A DNA stretch of 64,000 nucleotides from an uncultured Rhodospirillales bacterium (lineage in GTDB: Bacteria; Pseudomonadota; Alphaproteobacteria; Azospirillales; Azospirillaceae), in NCBI GenBank assembly GCA_903927615.1, contig CAIYNU010000022.1, positions 62,001-126,000 of the forward strand, read 5' to 3'. Position 1 is the first letter of the stretch, and each line of letters opens with the position of its first letter. Under the pieces are notes generated by a model. The model ran no database searches. It saw only the letters and a list, made by a program, of their open reading frames with translations, and was not told the DNA's origin. A program made the position numbers and the translations under genes. Shown one piece after another: positions 11,059 to 61,633 of this stretch.

Positions 11059-11132
11059 TGGAGCGGGTGAAGGGAATCGAACCCTCGTCGTAAGCTTGGG
11101 AAGCTTCTGCTCTACCATTGAGCTACACCCGC
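11059..11132 (-). tRNA. tRNA-Gly (anticodon CCC)
   Basis: A complete cloverleaf reads on the minus strand. The acceptor stem is GCGGGTG / CACCCGC, the D-arm starts GCTC, the anticodon loop is TTCCCAA (anticodon CCC), the T-arm contains GGTTCGATTCC, and CCA is encoded at the 3' end. The anticodon stem closes with four good pairs (AAGC/GCTT). Length is 74 bases including CCA. It decodes GGG glycine codons. Confidence 0.95.
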
Positions 11133-17947: not shown

Positions 17948-18604
17948 ATGAAACGTCTCAGCCTTGCTCTCGGGGTCGCCAGCTTGATGACGGCGGCACT
18001 GGCGGGTCCGGCTCTGGCCGATGACAGCGACGGCTTCAAGACCAAGGCCGCCGGCCAGGTCCTGTTGCGCGTCCGCGCGCTCGGCGTGCTGCCGGAAGAT
18101 GGCAGCTCGATCAAGACCGCTGGCGGCGCCAATACCGGTCTCAGCACTCGGGTTGATAATAATTTCGTTCCCGAAGTTGACCTCTCGTATTTCATCACCG
18201 ACAACATCGCGGTCGAGGCGATTGCTGCGGTCACCCAGCATCACGTTACCGCCCAACCCGGCAAAATCAATCTCGGCGATGTCTGGTTGTTGCCGCCGAC
18301 CATTACCGCTCAGTATCACTTCTTCACCAAAGAACGGATCAGCCCCTACCTCGGCGCCGGCATCAACTACACCTTCCTCTTTGGCGAGAGCGGTGGCGTG
18401 GGCCAACCCATGAAGTACTCCAACTCGTTTGGTCCGGCGGTTCAGGCCGGTATTGACATCGCGCTGACCGGCAACTGGTCATTGAACCTTGATGTGAAGA
18501 AAATCTTCATCTCGACCGACGTCAAGGCCTTCAACAGTGCTGTAAAAACCACTGTCGATCTCGACCCCTGGGTGGTCGGCATCGGTGTTGGGTATCGCTT
18601 CTAA
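17948..18604 (+). CDS. ompW: OmpW-family outer-membrane protein
   Basis: The protein has 218 residues with a clear signal peptide ending ALA near residue 24. The mature part alternates polar and aromatic residues as in an eight-stranded beta barrel. It contains the family blocks PPTITAQYHF and SPYLGAGINYTFLF, and ends VGIGVGYRF with a C-terminal phenylalanine for BAM recognition. OmpW proteins form narrow hydrophobic channels in the outer membrane and are often tied to low-oxygen or stress responses. It has a strong Shine-Dalgarno and its own terminator, so it is a single-gene transcript. Confidence 0.92.
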   Translation: MKRLSLALGVASLMTAALAGPALADDSDGFKTKAAGQVLLRVRALGVLPEDGSSIKTAGGANTGLSTRVDNNFVPEVDLSYFITDNIAVEAIAAVTQHHVTAQPGKINLGDVWLLPPTITAQYHFFTKERISPYLGAGINYTFLFGESGGVGQPMKYSNSFGPAVQAGIDIALTGNWSLNLDVKKIFISTDVKAFNSAVKTTVDLDPWVVGIGVGYRF

Positions 18605-32918: not shown

Positions 32919-34670
32919 TCACCGGGTCCCTAGGGCGCCCTCTCCATTCAGCTTCGCCAGTCGCTCCACGGCGCGGGGATTCCCTTTGGTCGCCGCCAGC
33001 CGGTACCACTTCACCGCCTCGGCCCGGTCGCGAGGGAGCCCGTGACCGGTCTCGCAGGCGCGACCAAGGGCGAGATAGGCTTCGGGCAGCCCCTGGTCGG
33101 CGGCGGCCCGGAACCATGTGACGGCCTCGGCGAAGTCCTGTTTGACATCGATTCCGGCCTCCAGAACCAGCCCGAGGGCAAACTGAGCGTGAGGATTGTG
33201 CTGGTTGGCGGCCAGGCGGAACAACCGCACCGCTTCGGTCGGATCGGCAGCCACCACACCGCCGGTACCTCTGATCAGCATCGAGGCCAGAGCCGTCGTT
33301 CCGGCGGGGTTGTTCATCGCCGCGGCCTTGCGGAACAGCGCCAGCGCCTGGGAATCGTCCTTGGGCACCCCGCGACCGGCGCGCAACAAATGACCCAAGG
33401 CCACCATGGCCAAGGGCTCGCCCTGGTCGGCGGCGCGACGGTACCAGCGGGCGGCTTCGGCGACGTCTTGGGGAACCTGACGACCGGCCTCGTACAGGTG
33501 GCCCAGCAGGAGCTGCGCGTGAGGATAACCGGCTTCGGCGCGGGCGCGCAGACGATCTGGCAGCGCGCCGGGCCCTTCCGGCCAGGTCATAGCCACCTTC
33601 GCCGGTTCGTGGCCCGCAGGGGGCGGCGACACGACGCCCGGATTTGGTCCTTGATTCGGCTGCTGAACGGGCCGCTGGGCGGTTTCGGAAACCGGGGCCG
33701 GACTGCGGGTGTCGTCGGGATGCGGGGCGGCGCGCATCAACTCACTGATCCGAATGGCAGCCAGTTCGGCGAAGGTGCCTTTCGGGTATTGGTCGAGATA
33801 GGCTTTGAAAGGTGCCGGATCGTGACTGCCCTTGACGCTTTCCCAGAACAGCGCCTCCTTATCGACCCCGGGCGGCGGCGTTACCGCAGCGGCACCGGCC
33901 GGTTCGGGCTTGGCGCCCGCCTTGAAGTAGAAATCACCGGTCAGGGACGAAGCCTCCCACGGAGTCTGTGCGCCCGACGAACGCTGCATGACCGCGCTGC
34001 GGACATGCTTGAAAACCTCCTCGATGGGCAACCCCGGTTGGTCGATGGCCTTCAACAGTTCTTCGGTATAAAGCCCGTTCTGGCCCTCGCCGTCGGACGC
34101 AACCTTGCCCGGCGCGGTGGCATAGGCAATCATAGTGCCTTCCGGCGCGTTTATTTGGGCCAGACCACCCGAGAGACCGCGGAATTTGTGCTCGAACGGG
34201 TTATTCCGGCAGGCGTCAAGGATCACCAGATTGACCCGGCTGTGCGCCGCCGCCATTTGATCCAGCACCACATCGACATCGACGGTCTGAAGCCGGACCT
34301 GAGGCTCGGTGCTGATCCTGGCGTCCACCGGGATCAGAAAATTCCGACCATCCACCTGCATGCCGTGACCGGAATAAAAGACCATGGCCACCGCACCGTC
34401 CTTAAGGCGCTCTCCGAAGCTGCCGATCGCGTCTTCCATTTCCTGTTTGGTGCTGTTCTCCCGGAGGATCACGTCAAAGCCGATGGCCCGGAGCTTGCTC
34501 GCAATGTCCCGGGCATCGTTGACCGGGTTGCGGAGCGGCGCATCCTTGTAGTCGGCATTGCCGATCACCAGGGCGATCCGGGTTTCCGCCGCCGCCGGCC
34601 GTACCATGGCCAATGCCAACATCAGCACCGCCACCACCAGCCGCCATCGGCTCTTGCCGTCCTTAATCAC
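32919..34670 (-). CDS. Caspase-family (C14) protein with Sel1 repeats
   Basis: The protein has 583 residues, starting at GTG 34670, which is placed well behind GGAAGGAGGA. A signal peptide (about 8-28, ending AAAE) exports it. The caspase domain (about 30-255) keeps the catalytic His in YSGHGMQVDG and Cys in ILDACRNNPF. A Pro-rich linker (about 270-360) follows, then about five Sel1 (TPR-like) repeats, recognisable as A-x-x-WYRRAA/LFRLAA units. Bacterial orthocaspases of this form cleave after basic residues or act in signalling; the target is unknown. It is first in the caspase-imuB-rnhB-ccrM run. Confidence 0.88.
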   Translation of the reverse strand: MIKDGKSRWRLVVAVLMLALAMVRPAAAETRIALVIGNADYKDAPLRNPVNDARDIASKLRAIGFDVILRENSTKQEMEDAIGSFGERLKDGAVAMVFYSGHGMQVDGRNFLIPVDARISTEPQVRLQTVDVDVVLDQMAAAHSRVNLVILDACRNNPFEHKFRGLSGGLAQINAPEGTMIAYATAPGKVASDGEGQNGLYTEELLKAIDQPGLPIEEVFKHVRSAVMQRSSGAQTPWEASSLTGDFYFKAGAKPEPAGAAAVTPPPGVDKEALFWESVKGSHDPAPFKAYLDQYPKGTFAELAAIRISELMRAAPHPDDTRSPAPVSETAQRPVQQPNQGPNPGVVSPPPAGHEPAKVAMTWPEGPGALPDRLRARAEAGYPHAQLLLGHLYEAGRQVPQDVAEAARWYRRAADQGEPLAMVALGHLLRAGRGVPKDDSQALALFRKAAAMNNPAGTTALASMLIRGTGGVVAADPTEAVRLFRLAANQHNPHAQFALGLVLEAGIDVKQDFAEAVTWFRAAADQGLPEAYLALGRACETGHGLPRDRAEAVKWYRLAATKGNPRAVERLAKLNGEGALGTR

Positions 34671-34945
34671 GACCTGTCCTCCTTCCCGGCATCGCGCCAC
34701 CGCTCGGCGGAAACCATACCACCGGTCGCCGCCCTCCAGCGGTGACGGCCATCACCAACGCTCCAATCCTGTATCGTGTTCAGGTATGATGTGGTACGCG
34801 CACTGCTGCCGGGCGAGCCGCGAACTTCCGGTCACCATCGGGGCCGGGAATGCCCCATGGCGGGCTTCGGGCAGTCCGGGATTAAAGGCAGCGCACTTCG
34901 AGACACAAGCAGCTCGACACACGAATGAGGAATAGGGAGGACGAT

Positions 34946-43022: not shown

Positions 43023-43065
43023 GGGGCGTGGGAGTTGGGGGGCGTGGGAGTTGGGGGGGGGTGGG
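43023..43065 (+). repeat. G-rich imperfect tandem repeat with G-quadruplex potential
   Basis: Two imperfect copies of a GGGGCGTGGGAGTT unit and a final nine-G run with TGGG give at least six runs of three or more G on the plus strand, separated by short loops. It lies about 160 bases upstream of the L,D-transpeptidase start, in the leader or promoter region. Confidence 0.7.
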
Positions 43066-43223: not shown

Positions 43224-44171
43224 ATGATGGATAACGACGGGACTCGATCCGGCGCGGCGCGGCGCTGGAAAGGGTGGATGGCGGCGATGATGGGCGGGTT
43301 CGCGGTGGCGGCCGGAGGCCTGCCGGTTGCCGATGCCCGCGCCGACAGTGCGATTGTCGGCACGGTCAGCACCTACGTCATCGAACACGATGACACCCTG
43401 CTGGACGTCGCCCGGAGATTCGATATCGGTTTTGTCGCCTTGGTGGCCGCAAACCCCGGCGTGGATCCCTGGCTGCCCGGAGAGGGCCTGACAGTCCTGC
43501 TTCCCACCGCGCATATCCTGCCCGATGCCCCGCACCGGGGTCTGGTCATCAACCTGACCGAGATGCGGCTTTATTATTACCGCCAGCCCGGAGCCGAACC
43601 CGAAACCCATCCGGTCGGAATCGGCAGCGAGGGCAAGGATACGCCGTTGGGCAGCACCACCATCGTGCGCAAGCAGGCCAATCCGACTTGGTATGTGCCG
43701 GCTTCGATCCGGGCCGAAAAGCCCGAATTGCCGGCGGTGATGCCGCCCGGACCGGACAATCCCATGGGGCTTTATGCGCTCTACCTCGGTTTTACCGGCG
43801 GCAGCTTCCGCATTCACGGCACCAACCAGCCGTTTGCGGTCGGTCGCCGCGTCACCCATGGCTGCATGAGGCTTTATCCCGAGGATATCGAGGACCTGTT
43901 CCGAAAAGTGGACCCGGGAACCCCCGTGACTTTCGTCGATCAACCGGTCAAAGTCGCCTGGCAGGACGGCGAGTTGTATATGGAGGTTCATCCCTCCAAG
44001 GCTCAAGCCGATCAACTGGAAGAAGAACACCAGATGATGGACGAACCGGCGGTCGGGGCCGTTGATTTGGCGATCAAGGCCGCGGGCGAAGCCCGGGATC
44101 GCCTGGATCTTCCGACCATCGAGCGGATCAGTCTGGAACGACGGGGATACCCGATCCGCATCACCCAGTGA
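43224..44171 (+). CDS. LysM-containing L,D-transpeptidase
   Basis: The protein has 315 residues from ATG 43224, with GAGGAA just upstream. A signal peptide (about 15-42) exports it to the periplasm. A LysM-type domain (about 50-95) should bind peptidoglycan, followed by the YkuD catalytic domain (about 110-240) with HGTNQPFAVGRRVTHGCMRL, carrying the catalytic Cys and His. It forms 3-3 cross-links or attaches proteins to meso-diaminopimelate. An acidic, helical C-terminal tail (245-315) is extra. It converges on an Lpp-like lipoprotein gene 30 bases away. Confidence 0.92.
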   Translation: MMDNDGTRSGAARRWKGWMAAMMGGFAVAAGGLPVADARADSAIVGTVSTYVIEHDDTLLDVARRFDIGFVALVAANPGVDPWLPGEGLTVLLPTAHILPDAPHRGLVINLTEMRLYYYRQPGAEPETHPVGIGSEGKDTPLGSTTIVRKQANPTWYVPASIRAEKPELPAVMPPGPDNPMGLYALYLGFTGGSFRIHGTNQPFAVGRRVTHGCMRLYPEDIEDLFRKVDPGTPVTFVDQPVKVAWQDGELYMEVHPSKAQADQLEEEHQMMDEPAVGAVDLAIKAAGEARDRLDLPTIERISLERRGYPIRITQ

Positions 44172-44201
44172 TGGGAAGGGGCATCCCCGGCCGGTACCGT
44201 C

Positions 44202-44432
44202 TTATTTATGCATGGAATGGTTGAACATCCGCTCGACCTTCTCGGCCGCAGCCTGAGCCGCCTGAGCAGCCGCTGCCGCCTGGGCCGCTGCCGCTTGGGC
44301 CGACTGGGCCGCCTGCAACGCCGCTGCCGCCTGCTGGCGGGCCTGCTCGTCAGTGGTGTTGCAGGCGCTGGCGCCCAAGGTCACCAGGGCGAGAACGGCG
44401 ACGGTGGCGAAAGACTTTGCAAACTTCGTCAT
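44202..44432 (-). CDS. Alanine-zipper outer-membrane lipoprotein (Lpp-like), C-terminal Lys
   Basis: A 76-residue protein with GGAGG before the ATG. The signal peptide ends in lipobox GASAC (cysteine near 24). Residues 30-64 form an alanine heptad coiled coil (A-x-x-A-x-x-A pattern), typical of Lpp/OprI-like zipper lipoproteins that trimerise. The last residue is lysine (NHSMHK), the residue by which Braun lipoprotein is joined to peptidoglycan in E. coli. Its gene converges with an L,D-transpeptidase, the enzyme class that makes this bond. Confidence 0.75.
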   Translation of the reverse strand: MTKFAKSFATVAVLALVTLGASACNTTDEQARQQAAAALQAAQSAQAAAAQAAAAAQAAQAAAEKVERMFNHSMHK

Positions 44433-45101
44433 CTTAGTGATGCCTCCAAATAGCAACGGACACTGCTGGTCACGGTGCGACTCTGTTCCGTTGCGGGTCA
44501 AACAACCGGTTTGTTGAAACAACCGATAATCACACAACACCAAGTCCGGAAAGCTGCCGACAAGCCCAAGGGCTGAACCTGTGTCACCAGCCCCCACACC
44601 TGACTTCCCGGCTCGCGCGTTCAATAAATGAAACCGCAAGGGACCGGGAAGCCCGTTGTGCGTTGCGGGGAGTATACAAGCCCGAAGGTCGAGTGGCGAG
44701 ACCCCATTCGTCAAAGAACCGCCGAATGGGCAATGAAGAGCGACCTGTGTTCTGGCGGTCGCGGGTGATCTCGCGGGGCTTCGTTGAAACCCGGATTAAC
44801 AGCGGGTTATCAACAGCGTGAGTCATCGGACACCATCGCTCGGGCGGCGTCGGCCCCGACGGCGGCGCGGGTCCCGGGCGCCGGCACTGACAACGGCCAC
44901 CATACCGTTAACCCGCCAAAGCAGAGACTCCCGGTGTTCAATTTCGCCCCATGATGGCAAAACATGGCCAATCCGGGGTGCCTGTCGCCTCGAGTCCTCT
45001 GCCCCGCCCGAAACGGCATCAGGCATGCGTCGCCGGAACTGGTGATTATGATAAGCATGCTTATAATAGGCGTCGCTTGTTATTGAGAGGCTGATTTCCC
45101 G
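44433..45101. other. 669-base intergenic region between the Lpp-like and marR genes
   Basis: No convincing gene. It holds the lipoprotein promoter region, direct AAACAACCG repeats near 44505 and 44519 around an AACCGGTT core, an 8-bp inverted repeat CTTCCCGG/CCGGGAAG (44604-44611, 44644-44651), a single DnaA-box-like TTATCAACA (44808-44816), and the marR operator at its end. An 80-codon minus frame (44584-44826) is basic and unsupported. Confidence 0.5.
45039..45068 (+). promoter_or_regulatory. marR operator overlapping a TATAAT -10 element
   Basis: A perfect palindrome ATAAGCATGCTTAT lies at 45051-45064, extendable to 22 bases (45047-45068) with one mismatched pair. The perfect -10 TATAAT (45062-45067) overlaps its right arm; a weak -35 (CTGGTG, 45039-45044) lies 17 bases upstream. 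This is the expected layout for autorepression by the MarR protein encoded next. Confidence 0.65.
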
Positions 45102-59260: not shown

Positions 59261-60124
59261 TCACGCCGACGGATAGGCGGGAGGCCGCGGCTCATACCCC
59301 AGACGGTGCATCATCGCGCCATGAGCGTCCACGATGGCCGTTGCCTGGGCGGCGGTTAACGCCAGACGCCAGTCACCGACGCACCCTTTGCGAAAGAATA
59401 GCGAGGTCCTCGACAGCCTTTCAGTGAATCCCGCCTCGCGCTCTTGGGACTGAAGCCTGGCGAAGTCCGAATGCTGAACCGCCCTTTCGATTGCCGCCGA
59501 ACCGAAGTCCAGGCCGAGAAAGTGCGCCACGCCCGTAAAGGTGTCGACCGGGGCGACGACCAGATCCTCGTAACGCACGAGATGGACCGGCATCTCCCCC
59601 TGGTCCAGCCAACTGGCAACGTGGGCGCTCCAATCCAACAGGCGCGAGTGGAAGCGCCCACTTCGCGCCCGACGCGGCGATCCGGTCAGCGCCGTGTTCA
59701 TCCCGGCAATGGCCTGGTCGATGGTAACGTCAAAGTGATGGCTCAGCGAGACCGCAACATCACGGGGATCCCGGACGATGTAAATCACGCCCCGCGCCGC
59801 CATACGCCCAAACAGCGGTTCACCGGGCGCGATTTCGGTATAGGCGTCATGGACTTTGATGAAGTGTGGTGCTGGAACCTCGGCGCCCAGGGCCTCGTAG
59901 ACCGCCGGACGCAATCGGTCGACTTCGTCATCGTCCAGCAGATTGGCCGCAAGAAGCGTCCAGGCGTTAAAAACATCTTTAGACTCAGCCATATAAACGT
60001 CGTCGAGGTCATTGATGGGCAACGGCTCCGCCGCACCGGAGGACAGATTGGCCAGCAAAACCCGCATCCAGGTGTTGCCCGATTTTGGATAGGAAGCCAG
60101 CCACACGATTCCCCCTCGGGTCAT
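59261..60124 (-). CDS. Sulfotransferase (P-loop, PAPS-dependent)
   Basis: The protein has 287 residues from ATG 60124, which overlaps the hprK-like stop (ATGA); the outer ATG 60142 is less likely. The PAPS 5'-phosphosulfate loop YPKSGNTWMRVLLA lies at the N-terminus and the 3'-phosphate motif IVRDPRDVAVSLSHHF near 130. VRYEDLVVAPVDTF near 190 and RKGCVGDW near 255 match cytosolic sulfotransferase motifs. It should move sulfate to a hydroxyl or amine of an unknown acceptor. Translational coupling to the HPr-kinase-like gene ties the two functionally. Confidence 0.85.
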   Translation of the reverse strand: MTRGGIVWLASYPKSGNTWMRVLLANLSSGAAEPLPINDLDDVYMAESKDVFNAWTLLAANLLDDDEVDRLRPAVYEALGAEVPAPHFIKVHDAYTEIAPGEPLFGRMAARGVIYIVRDPRDVAVSLSHHFDVTIDQAIAGMNTALTGSPRRARSGRFHSRLLDWSAHVASWLDQGEMPVHLVRYEDLVVAPVDTFTGVAHFLGLDFGSAAIERAVQHSDFARLQSQEREAGFTERLSRTSLFFRKGCVGDWRLALTAAQATAIVDAHGAMMHRLGYEPRPPAYPSA

Positions 60125-61086
60125 AGGTTCAGGCTCCGCCAATGGCCTTCCAACACCGGAAGGGCTTCGGACAACAGGCCGAGATCATCGGGACGCGACA
60201 AGCCGAAGATCGGCACCCGTCGCAACAGGGCCGACGAGGCCGCAAACCACTGTCGCTCGGCTCCCGTCGCCTTGATCATGCGGGGACGATAGGCGTTGCT
60301 GCGCAAGGCATTCAGTGCCTTCATGGGGCTTAAACGGTCGATCTCCCACCGCGTCTGCCGGCGATCACCCAAAAGAACATAGATGGCGCCCAACGGCACC
60401 TCGTCGGGTACACAAGTCTGCGGCGGTTGGACCCAGAGCTTGGACAGTCCCGCACGAACCGCCGCCCCTCCTTCCATATTCAGGTGTGCGATCACGTTGG
60501 ACCACAGCTTGATCATGCGGCCATCCGGCCGAAGCGTGGCCTGCCCGCCGGCAAGGACGTCGAGGACACAAATATCGTCGGACAGAAACGGATGGCCGGC
60601 GTTGGCCAGGGCGGCGGCAAGGGTCGACTTGCCCGCTTCGGAGGGCCCGCAGAACAGCATGGCCTTGCCGCTGACCTCTACCGCACTGGCATGGACAACA
60701 TAGCCACCACGCTGGTGGAACAGCACGCCAAGGGCAGTGCCGCACAGGAAAATATGAAAATCCTGGTCCGATCGTCCGTTTTCGGGAGCATAGACGACGG
60801 TCTTCCCCCCCGTTACCAAAAACCGCAGCCGTCCCGGAATCTGCACCAGGACACGGTCGCCGGCAATCTGCCAATTCGGCCCCAAGGGAACTCCGTCAGG
60901 CAACGCCGCCGGCAGCTCGCCTCGCTTTAACACGATATCGGGTGTCGCATCCGGCGTCACGGGAACGGCCCCCGGAAGCTCGATATCGGTCGCCACGTGA
61001 CAGCCGCAAATTCTGTAGCGATACTCCACAGAGGCCTCTCCAGACTGGTGGTTGGCGGCTTTGGGCCCCCAGATCATTGCTTTCAT
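60121..61086 (-). CDS. HPr-kinase-related protein
   Basis: The protein has 321 residues. An N-terminal domain (about 15-120) is followed by a HprK-type P-loop domain: CGPSEAGKSTLAAALANAG (about 147-165) and LSDDICVLDV (Walker B-like). The surrounding GYVVHASAVEVSGKAML and PIFGLSRPDDL fit HprK-related kinases that occur beside PqqD-like proteins in peptide-modification gene sets. No HPr/PTS gene is nearby, so carbon-catabolite control is unlikely. It is co-translated with the downstream sulfotransferase and diverges from the pqqD-like gene. Confidence 0.8.
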   Translation of the reverse strand: MKAMIWGPKAANHQSGEASVEYRYRICGCHVATDIELPGAVPVTPDATPDIVLKRGELPAALPDGVPLGPNWQIAGDRVLVQIPGRLRFLVTGGKTVVYAPENGRSDQDFHIFLCGTALGVLFHQRGGYVVHASAVEVSGKAMLFCGPSEAGKSTLAAALANAGHPFLSDDICVLDVLAGGQATLRPDGRMIKLWSNVIAHLNMEGGAAVRAGLSKLWVQPPQTCVPDEVPLGAIYVLLGDRRQTRWEIDRLSPMKALNALRSNAYRPRMIKATGAERQWFAASSALLRRVPIFGLSRPDDLGLLSEALPVLEGHWRSLNL

Positions 61087-61348
61087 CGTTCCGGTCGGGA
61101 AATCGGCACTGGCCGGTGGCCGGTGGCCGGTGACTATCCCGACGGGATGGATCGGTCAATGGTTGCGCACCGGACGCGGCTTGCGCTGGCCTTCAGTGGC
61201 CAGAAACACGCTGGGAACCGGGTCGCCTCTGACGGCTGGGACCAAAGAGAGCAGGGCATCGTGGGCAATTTCGCTTTATCCCTCCCGACGGGTGGGTTAG
61301 GATCGAAGTGTTCGCGTCATCTTTCAAGGAAAATTCAGGGAACAGTGT
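61087..61348. other. Divergent intergenic region of the HprK/PqqD cluster
   Basis: It separates two divergent operons and holds three tandem GGCCGGT units. No precursor-like small gene with a credible leader was found: the longest plus frame (MDRSMVAHRTRL...) overlaps the pqqD-like start and lacks a ribosome-binding site. No clear promoter hexamers are seen. Confidence 0.45.
61111..61131. repeat. Three tandem GGCCGGT units
   Basis: Three exact 7-base copies, located just upstream of the hprK-like start. It may bind a regulator or be a simple slippage product. Confidence 0.6.
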
Positions 61349-61633
61349 ATGTGCATAACGTTGTATGATGTCGTCCAGCGGGCTCCTGGAGCCCTGGCTG
61401 CTGAGATCGACCAGGAAATTATAATTCTTGATGTCAATTCGGCCAAATATCTATCCTTGAACGAGGTCGCCGCAGCGATTTGGCGCACCCTCGAAACTCC
61501 GCTTTCGGTTGATGATCTCTGCCAGAGGCTGCAATCCTCCTTTGAGGCCCAGCCCGAAACCATCACAGCCGACGTGCTGGCGTTCCTTGACCGTCTCGAC
61601 GAACGGGGCCTGTTGCTGCGCGAAACGAAATAA
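61349..61633 (+). CDS. PqqD-like peptide-recognition protein
   Basis: A 94-residue protein matching the PqqD/RRE winged-helix pattern: LAAEIDQEIIILDVNSAKYL, LNEVAAAIWRTLETPLSV, and LAFLDRLDERGLLL. PqqD proteins bind the leader of ribosomal peptides and present them to modifying enzymes. AGGGAA lies upstream of the ATG. Its stop overlaps the next ATG (TAATG), so it is coupled to the Stf0-like gene. HprK-related kinase and PqqD partners recur together in diverse Proteobacteria. Confidence 0.85.
   Translation: MCITLYDVVQRAPGALAAEIDQEIIILDVNSAKYLSLNEVAAAIWRTLETPLSVDDLCQRLQSSFEAQPETITADVLAFLDRLDERGLLLRETK

Follow-up and report, generated by a model that had tools for sequence, protein, structure and literature searches.

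The window analysed here is a stretch of 64,000 nucleotides (nt) from the genome of an uncultured Rhodospirillales bacterium of the family Azospirillaceae (G000:C22:62001-126000; source genome of 4.57 Mb in 104 contigs). It contains two convergent genes that probably encode a covalent tether between the outer membrane and peptidoglycan, of the type known from Braun lipoprotein (Lpp) and OprI. One gene codes for an L,D-transpeptidase (LDT) of the ErfK/YbiS/YcfS/YnhG type (43224..44171, forward strand), and the other codes for a small Lpp/OprI-like lipoprotein, P0001 (44202..44432, reverse strand). A preliminary description of this DNA had proposed that an exported LysM-YkuD enzyme faces an alanine-rich lipoprotein ending in lysine. 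Both genes lie where it placed them, with 30 nt between the stop codons (44172..44201) and no terminator-like site in this gap, and its account of the two products is upheld by the results given below.

The LDT gene starts with ATG and encodes 315 amino acids (aa), comprising a LysM-like part, a YkuD domain and a C-terminal helical part. Residues 1-40 (43224..43343, forward) are predicted to form a Sec signal peptide, with a basic n-region, a hydrophobic core and cleavage between A-R-A and D that follows the AxA rule. The AlphaFold model of the enzyme has a pLDDT of 89.1, and low confidence is confined to residues 1-28, 30-32 and 34-39 in the signal peptide region. The LysM-like segment (residues ~48-94; 43365..43505, forward) is a beta-alpha-alpha-beta unit in the model, with strands at 49-52 and 90-93 and helices at 59-65 and 70-76. 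LysM was not called in the Pfam scan. The model matches 4lzh, an LDT from Klebsiella, with a Z score of 31.2 (261 residues aligned at 2.1 A, model residues 39-314), and because this match spans the segment, the model identifies it as a LysM domain undetected by Pfam. The YkuD catalytic domain (PF03734, residues 106-236; 43539..43931, forward) scored 95.7 bits against a Pfam cut-off of 23.4. Within it lies the catalytic motif T-H-G-C-M-R (43854..43871, forward), which includes Cys214 and Arg216. In an alignment of 39 LDTs, G213 and C214 are invariant and R216 is found in at least 90% of the sequences. The catalytic arginine is the residue reported to be missing from DpaA (PMC8263019; this and the other sources cited by PMC number are drawn on as partial texts).

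The best NCBIfam models for the enzyme are LdtE (201.9 bits), PRK10260 (199.5 bits) and PRK10190 (186.1 bits), and none of the corresponding equivalog cut-offs (480, 583 and 517 bits) is reached. By these profile scores, the window LDT belongs to the lineage shared by the three E. coli enzymes and is an orthologue of no named one. Its nearest relative, with 85% identity, is from another uncultured Rhodospirillales bin (L086). In a tree of 82 LDTs built by a quick method, the two group together (support 100), next to an LDT from Azospirillaceae (L062; support 85), within a mainly alphaproteobacterial group of 29 (support 86). The deep branches of this tree are weak, paralogues are mixed and the long-branched LdtE of E. 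coli is unreliably placed; therefore, neither vertical descent nor transfer is claimed for the enzyme.

P0001 is a protein of 76 aa, and its mature chain of 53 aa is 42% alanine and ends in lysine. The gene is preceded by a ribosome-binding site read from the sequence as GGAGG (44443..44447, reverse). The lipobox A-S-A-C occupies residues 21-24 (44361..44372, reverse), and Cys24, which is predicted to be lipidated, corresponds to an invariant position in a 20-row alignment of the family (A1). Under the Lol rule, aspartate at position +2 would divert a lipoprotein from outer-membrane sorting. The +2 residue of P0001 is asparagine rather than aspartate, and the protein is thus predicted to be sorted to the outer membrane. 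The C-terminal tail, EKVERMFNHSMHK (44205..44243, reverse), ends in Lys76 (codon 44207-44205) and matches the consensus of related tails.

Searches with the single sequence of P0001 returned many weak, alanine-rich matches (E up to 1), which were kept if a profile, a lipobox or an LDT agreed, and phmmer against solved structures gave nothing useful. Of the 20 sequences in A1, among them P0001, 17 matched the alanine-zipper profile PF11839 at E<=0.01. The alignment of P0001 reaches the last column of that profile, and its terminal lysine therefore coincides with the terminal column of the family. Among relatives, an alphaproteobacterial protein (L067) reached 43 of the 43 bits required by NF040598, the NCBI model Ala_zip_lipo, and another (L013) scored 21.5 bits; some family members may thus already carry that annotation. 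Alanine-rich chains match each other by composition, and profiles of mature chains were therefore judged against shuffled controls. The mature-only A1 profile matched an OprI-type profile (A5: 12 sequences labelled as Gammaproteobacteria or simply Proteobacteria, two of them OprI homologues) with a probability of 97.2% and a score of 54.8, and the maximum in 40 column shuffles was 11.8. On this profile evidence, the P0001 family is homologous to OprI-type lipoproteins beyond a shared alanine content.

Occurrence of the pair and conservation of the terminal lysine

Relatives of P0001 are present in four genomes of the same genus (G001-G004), and the convergent pair is kept in all four. The wider occurrence was assessed in 387 evenly sampled alphaproteobacterial genomes, the window's own included. 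LDTs of this type (E<=1e-50, with partial matches in G176 and G256 set aside) were found in 46 genomes from 23 families. A small lipoprotein ending in lysine accompanies the enzyme in 43 of these 46, from 20 families; 40 were identified by script and three (G245, G313 and G277) by reading. In the other three genomes, a contig ends beside the LDT gene (G041 and G415) or the lipoprotein frame is broken by a stop (G175). The preliminary description had regarded a Braun-type pair as notable in this class and had named conservation of the terminal lysine in orthologues as a check. The residue is kept in these 43 genomes, and the different ending at one locus outside this count (L048) is considered below. 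The interpretation of a Braun-type pair is thus supported, with the correction that the LDT-lipoprotein pair is a patchy feature of Alphaproteobacteria and not an oddity of one genome.

The two genes also co-occur when the lipoprotein is searched for independently of the enzyme. All 32 genomes matched by the lipoprotein profile at E<1e-7 are among the 46 with the LDT (Fisher p 4e-36), and in 29 of the 32 the match lies within 750 nt of the LDT gene. In G049 and G118, the lipoprotein is on a different contig from the LDT. A match counted among the 32, on contig C29 of G098 (E 4.7e-9; L170), was rejected as false, being located inside a 531-aa frame and yielding no lipoprotein; the genuine lysine-ending lipoprotein of G098 adjoins the LDT gene on C32. 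At the looser threshold of E<=1e-4, 35 of 42 matching genomes have the LDT, and a read-through match in G175 is among the 42.

A further survey covered every open reading frame (ORF) of 45-170 aa with a lipobox around 135 distinct LDTs from Alphaproteobacteria, Gammaproteobacteria and other groups, E. coli included, with no selection for lysine or alanine. Such frames end in lysine in 61 of 76 cases within 900 nt of an LDT and in 3 of 19 cases beyond 1500 nt (Fisher p 2.9e-7). Several of the nearby frames that do not end in lysine are antisense to the lipoprotein gene. Counted by locus, 61 of the 63 with any candidate have a lysine-ending one, and the other 72 loci have no candidate under the strict filter. 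Of these 61 lipoproteins, 54 are convergent with and downstream of the LDT gene and seven are co-directional and upstream. In the same fetched loci, 24 of 843 ORFs of at least 250 aa, antisense frames included, end in lysine.

In a congeneric genome (L056; G002:C82), a second and divergent LDT-lipoprotein pair, also convergent, was observed in addition to the orthologous one; its lipoprotein ends in FNTTLRK.

A putative covalent tether and its alternatives

In the proposed mechanism, the lipoprotein would be exported, lipidated on Cys24 and sorted to the outer membrane, where it would sit in the inner leaflet, and its alanine-rich helix, probably in oligomeric form, would cross the periplasm. 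The LDT would first react with a tetrapeptide stem to give an acyl-enzyme and then pass the tripeptide to the epsilon-amine of Lys76. Lys76 would thereby be joined to meso-diaminopimelate of the tripeptide stem, most likely by the convergent LDT. The precedent is the anchoring of Lpp and OprI, for which the same course is described, from an acyl-enzyme formed on the tetrapeptide to transfer of the tripeptide onto the epsilon-amine of the C-terminal lysine (PMC10434034). LdtPae2, which belongs to the lineage of ErfK, YbiS, YcfS and YnhG, is reported to anchor both OprI and E. coli Lpp, two lipoproteins that are 24.8% identical (PMC10434034).

The pair resembles several known systems. With OprI and LdtPae2 of Pseudomonas it shares an alanine-zipper lipoprotein that ends in lysine, homology at the profile level, the lineage of the LDT and the convergent arrangement, which is found in Pseudomonas abyssi (L121; ~44 nt between the genes) and Halopseudomonas (L120; ~81 nt). 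In P. aeruginosa, the LdtPae2 gene is taken to be the neighbour of oprI. The window pair differs in its alphaproteobacterial host, in its His-Lys rather than Arg-Lys end and in the length of the mature chain, which is 53 aa in P0001 and 65 (L121) and 67 aa (L120) in the OprI homologues. With Lpp and LdtE of E. coli it shares a convergent layout, a lipobox, a terminal lysine and a similar mature length (58 aa in Lpp), whereas P0001 matches the alanine-zipper model PF11839 and not the LPP model PF04728. Similarly, the barrels Omp25 of Brucella and AopA/AopB of Agrobacterium are LDT-made links between the outer membrane and peptidoglycan in Alphaproteobacteria, but they are attached through an N-terminal Ala-Asp and not through the C-terminal lysine of a lipoprotein (PMC11527210, PMC10787603). 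OutB of Dickeya, an inner-membrane protein and not an outer-membrane lipoprotein, also has a C-terminal lysine box that LDTs attach and that can be transferred to a reporter protein (PMC12274547).

Published statements place Lpp mostly outside this class. In the parts of the sources drawn on here, Lpp is described as confined to closely related Gammaproteobacteria (PMC8263019), and no Lpp is reported for Rhodothalassium (PMC11762602), for Brucella and related Rhizobiales (PMC10787603) or for Agrobacterium and related species (PMC11527210). One paper states that no Lpp homologues are known in Rhodobacter sphaeroides and other Alphaproteobacteria and, elsewhere, that they are 'absent in most' (PMC10470522). 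The peptidoglycan of Caulobacter is reported to give no evidence of attached Braun lipoprotein (PMC3585186), and in a paper on the curvature of Rhodospirillum rubrum, Lpp is named by analogy alone in the portion drawn on (PMC11369160). A Tri-Lys-Arg muropeptide was reported in the peptidoglycan of R. sphaeroides, with its source protein described as unknown (PMC10470522); a lysine-linked protein in an alphaproteobacterium has therefore already been glimpsed. Among the titles listed in searches of open-licence papers, none concerned a lipoprotein tether of Lpp/OprI type from Alphaproteobacteria. The window pair is a further example of the known Braun/OprI kind, from a class in which Lpp is described as mostly absent.

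A number of observations weigh against a covalent tether. P0001 falls below the cut-offs of both PF11839 (E 2.7e-4; 21.6 against 23.1 bits) and NF040598 (15.9 against 43 bits), and is therefore labelled Lpp/OprI-like. Its penultimate residue is histidine, as opposed to the commoner arginine; in Dickeya, the C-terminal lysine box is reported to be necessary and sufficient for linkage and to tolerate substitutions (PMC12274547), and the His-Lys end is therefore no clear obstacle. The lipoproteins of Limibaculum sediminis (L072) and Pelagibius sp. (L063) end in Arg-Lys and Thr-Lys, respectively. Most sampled genomes lack the system, the LDT being present in 46 of 387, and 7 of the 42 genomes matched by the looser lipoprotein search have no LDT. 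Limibaculum (L072), recorded as Paracoccaceae, carries the pair, and only 2 of the 196 genomes of its order, that of L072 included, have a lipoprotein match. More than 20% of the periplasmic proteins and lipoproteins of E. coli are reported to end in lysine (PMC12274547), and the fair comparisons are therefore those between near and far frames and those made genome by genome. In the window's own family, the LDT was found in 11 of 35 sampled genomes (E<=1e-70), and 10 of the 11 have a lysine-ending lipoprotein; the eleventh (G027) is that of L048, whose lipoprotein ends in RTQRKIRS, with serine as the last residue. Among the lipoproteins listed by a profile stripped of its last four columns (E<=1e-3), that of L048 is the sole one without a terminal lysine. 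L048 was left out of A1, and the lysine in all 20 rows of that alignment is therefore no independent count. The zipper lipoprotein frame of L048 (1202-1453) was observed to overrun the usual RK end by three residues, through a late stop or a sequencing error.

The count of 2 in 196 genomes also bears on R. sphaeroides: the lipoprotein family of P0001, given its presence in Limibaculum, was considered as the source of the Tri-Lys-Arg muropeptide and is probably not it.

Four alternatives to the proposed tether were weighed. It is unlikely, though by no means far-fetched, that the wall link is made by another YkuD enzyme and that the adjacent LDT is mainly a 3->3 cross-linker like LdtE of E. coli. 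LdtE is the top NCBIfam model for the window LDT, with PRK10260 nearly equal to it, and the window's genome has seven YkuD matches. In E. coli, lpp and ldtE adjoin and are convergent, 63 nt apart, yet LdtE is a 3->3 cross-linker and Lpp is anchored by LdtA, LdtB and LdtC (PMC12729407); adjacency to lpp therefore does not identify an anchoring enzyme. The parallel with E. coli drawn in the preliminary description holds, and it goes further than was said there, since the E. coli genes also converge. In addition, anchoring and cross-linking LDTs are reported not to be divided by lineage (PMC10434034). Against a separate anchoring enzyme stand the tight co-occurrence of LDT and lipoprotein in all 32 of the strict profile matches and the anchoring of OprI by LdtPae2, an enzyme of the same lineage, and the LdtPae2-OprI pair is a better precedent than LdtE and lpp. 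That P0001 is a non-covalent stabilizer of the envelope with an incidental terminal lysine seems improbable. HP0135 of Helicobacter pylori, which has a conserved terminal lysine and yet went undetected in the sacculus (PMC11768039), supports such a role and counts against a covalent bond in P0001; H. pylori, however, is described as having no Lpp-linking LDTs (PMC11768039), whereas the LDT and lipoprotein studied here co-occur and mostly adjoin, and the lysine-ending tail recurs on unlike spacers.

There is little to favour the idea that attachment of the outer membrane depends mainly on beta-barrels of the Brucella type and that the pair is vestigial. Brucella and Agrobacterium are described as tethering the membrane through barrels (PMC10787603, PMC11527210), but a search of the window's genome with OMP_b-brl (PF13505) gave a single match, an OmpW-family barrel in the window (17948-18604, forward) whose predicted mature start is D-D-S and not Ala-Asp, a weak test with PF13505 the sole barrel family searched. 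Also, the pair is intact in the window's genome and in the four congeneric ones. Finally, GC-rich genomes contain many alanine-rich ORFs, and most of the weak matches of P0001 have this appearance, but a chance meeting of such a frame with an LDT gene is refuted by the co-occurrence of the two genes and by the excess of terminal lysine near the enzyme. A covalent tether of Braun/OprI type thus remains the preferred reading of the pair.

Detachment of the lipoprotein may also be encoded. A YkuD protein of the window's genome (L005 1354-1908; G000:C81) has the motif TKGCIA, and its only NCBIfam match is DpaA/YafK, at 41.3 of 365 bits. By this resemblance, it is a possible candidate for an amidase that detaches the tether. 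A further YkuD protein, with the motif TEGCVA, was observed in L006.

Tail motif and non-zipper lipoproteins

A common pattern was found in 51 distinct tails of lipoproteins beside LDTs, all selected for a terminal lysine. Position -8 is arginine in 42 of these tails, position -11 is lysine or arginine in 45, position -9 is aspartate or glutamate in 41 and position -6 is hydrophobic in 49; the tail of P0001 agrees with this pattern. A similar tail is found on lipoproteins of another kind. In one alphaproteobacterial family, f122 (L204, L206, L209, L211 and L231-L260), the LDT is faced by a short, proline-rich lipoprotein of ~43-50 residues that is no alanine zipper; its core is PYAxERT-like, and SERVFREVQTK is an example of its tail. 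None of these proteins exceeded a cut-off in Pfam (five scanned) or NCBIfam (two scanned; best score 19.6 of 118 bits). A profile built from five f122 sequences matched 56 of the 61 genomes of the family at E<=0.01, some of them partially. With the last six columns of the profile removed, 31 of the 32 ORFs at the 30 best loci end in lysine, five of them being or equalling seed sequences, and the remaining one (L256) has an in-frame stop. An LDT lies inside the fetched stretch in 21 of these 30 loci. Two loci of the family (L249 and L250) were seen to have a second, shorter copy of the lipoprotein. Odd non-zipper chains that end in lysine were also observed opposite an LDT at L078 (6940-7107) and L079 (3025-3237).

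Full-length profiles of the zipper and non-zipper lipoproteins matched at 92%, due solely to the signal peptide. Profiles of the mature chains matched at 3.1%, with the tail alone aligned, and the 15-residue tails matched at 57%, with a score of 14.2 against a maximum of 12.4 in 40 shuffles. These alignments are suggestive of, and not proof of, one tail shared by the zipper and f122 lipoproteins.

Such a tail could belong to an alphaproteobacterial tether module, in which this type of LDT would be combined with a lysine-ending tail (~E[KR]x[DE]RxF-x5-K) that the enzyme recognizes and with an interchangeable spacer. The module would be a second and overlooked covalent tether beside the beta-barrels, a proposal that we regard as evenly poised between right and wrong. 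If it is right, the spacer would be an alanine-zipper helix in most of the families seen and a flexible, proline-rich chain in f122, with other odd chains in L078 and L079. This natural exchange of spacers under a similar tail would give a handle on what the LDT recognizes and on whether setting the width of the periplasm requires a coiled coil. Beyond the window, it is the class-wide occurrence and the non-zipper variants with a similar tail that deserve specialist attention. The survey also provides genes for asking where in the class lipoprotein tethers, barrel tethers or the two together are in use.

Other features of the window

The list of genes used for viewing the neighbourhood was compiled by a greedy, mechanical procedure that mis-called some frames, and it served for that purpose alone. 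Scans for regulatory sites were uninformative, with one promoter-like site against 0.4 expected and two terminator-like sites against 1.8 expected, and no site of either kind in the gap separating the LDT and lipoprotein genes. The sole Rfam match at gathering thresholds is a tRNA at 11062-11132. A G-rich direct repeat, consisting of two copies of GTGGGAGTTGGGGGGC, is located at 43028-43061, ~160-200 nt 5' of the LDT start. A protein with a caspase domain (Peptidase_C14) and Sel1 repeats is encoded at 32919-34700 (reverse). A PqqD-like gene lies near a sulfotransferase gene at 59261-61633, and the two may belong to a peptide-modifying cluster.

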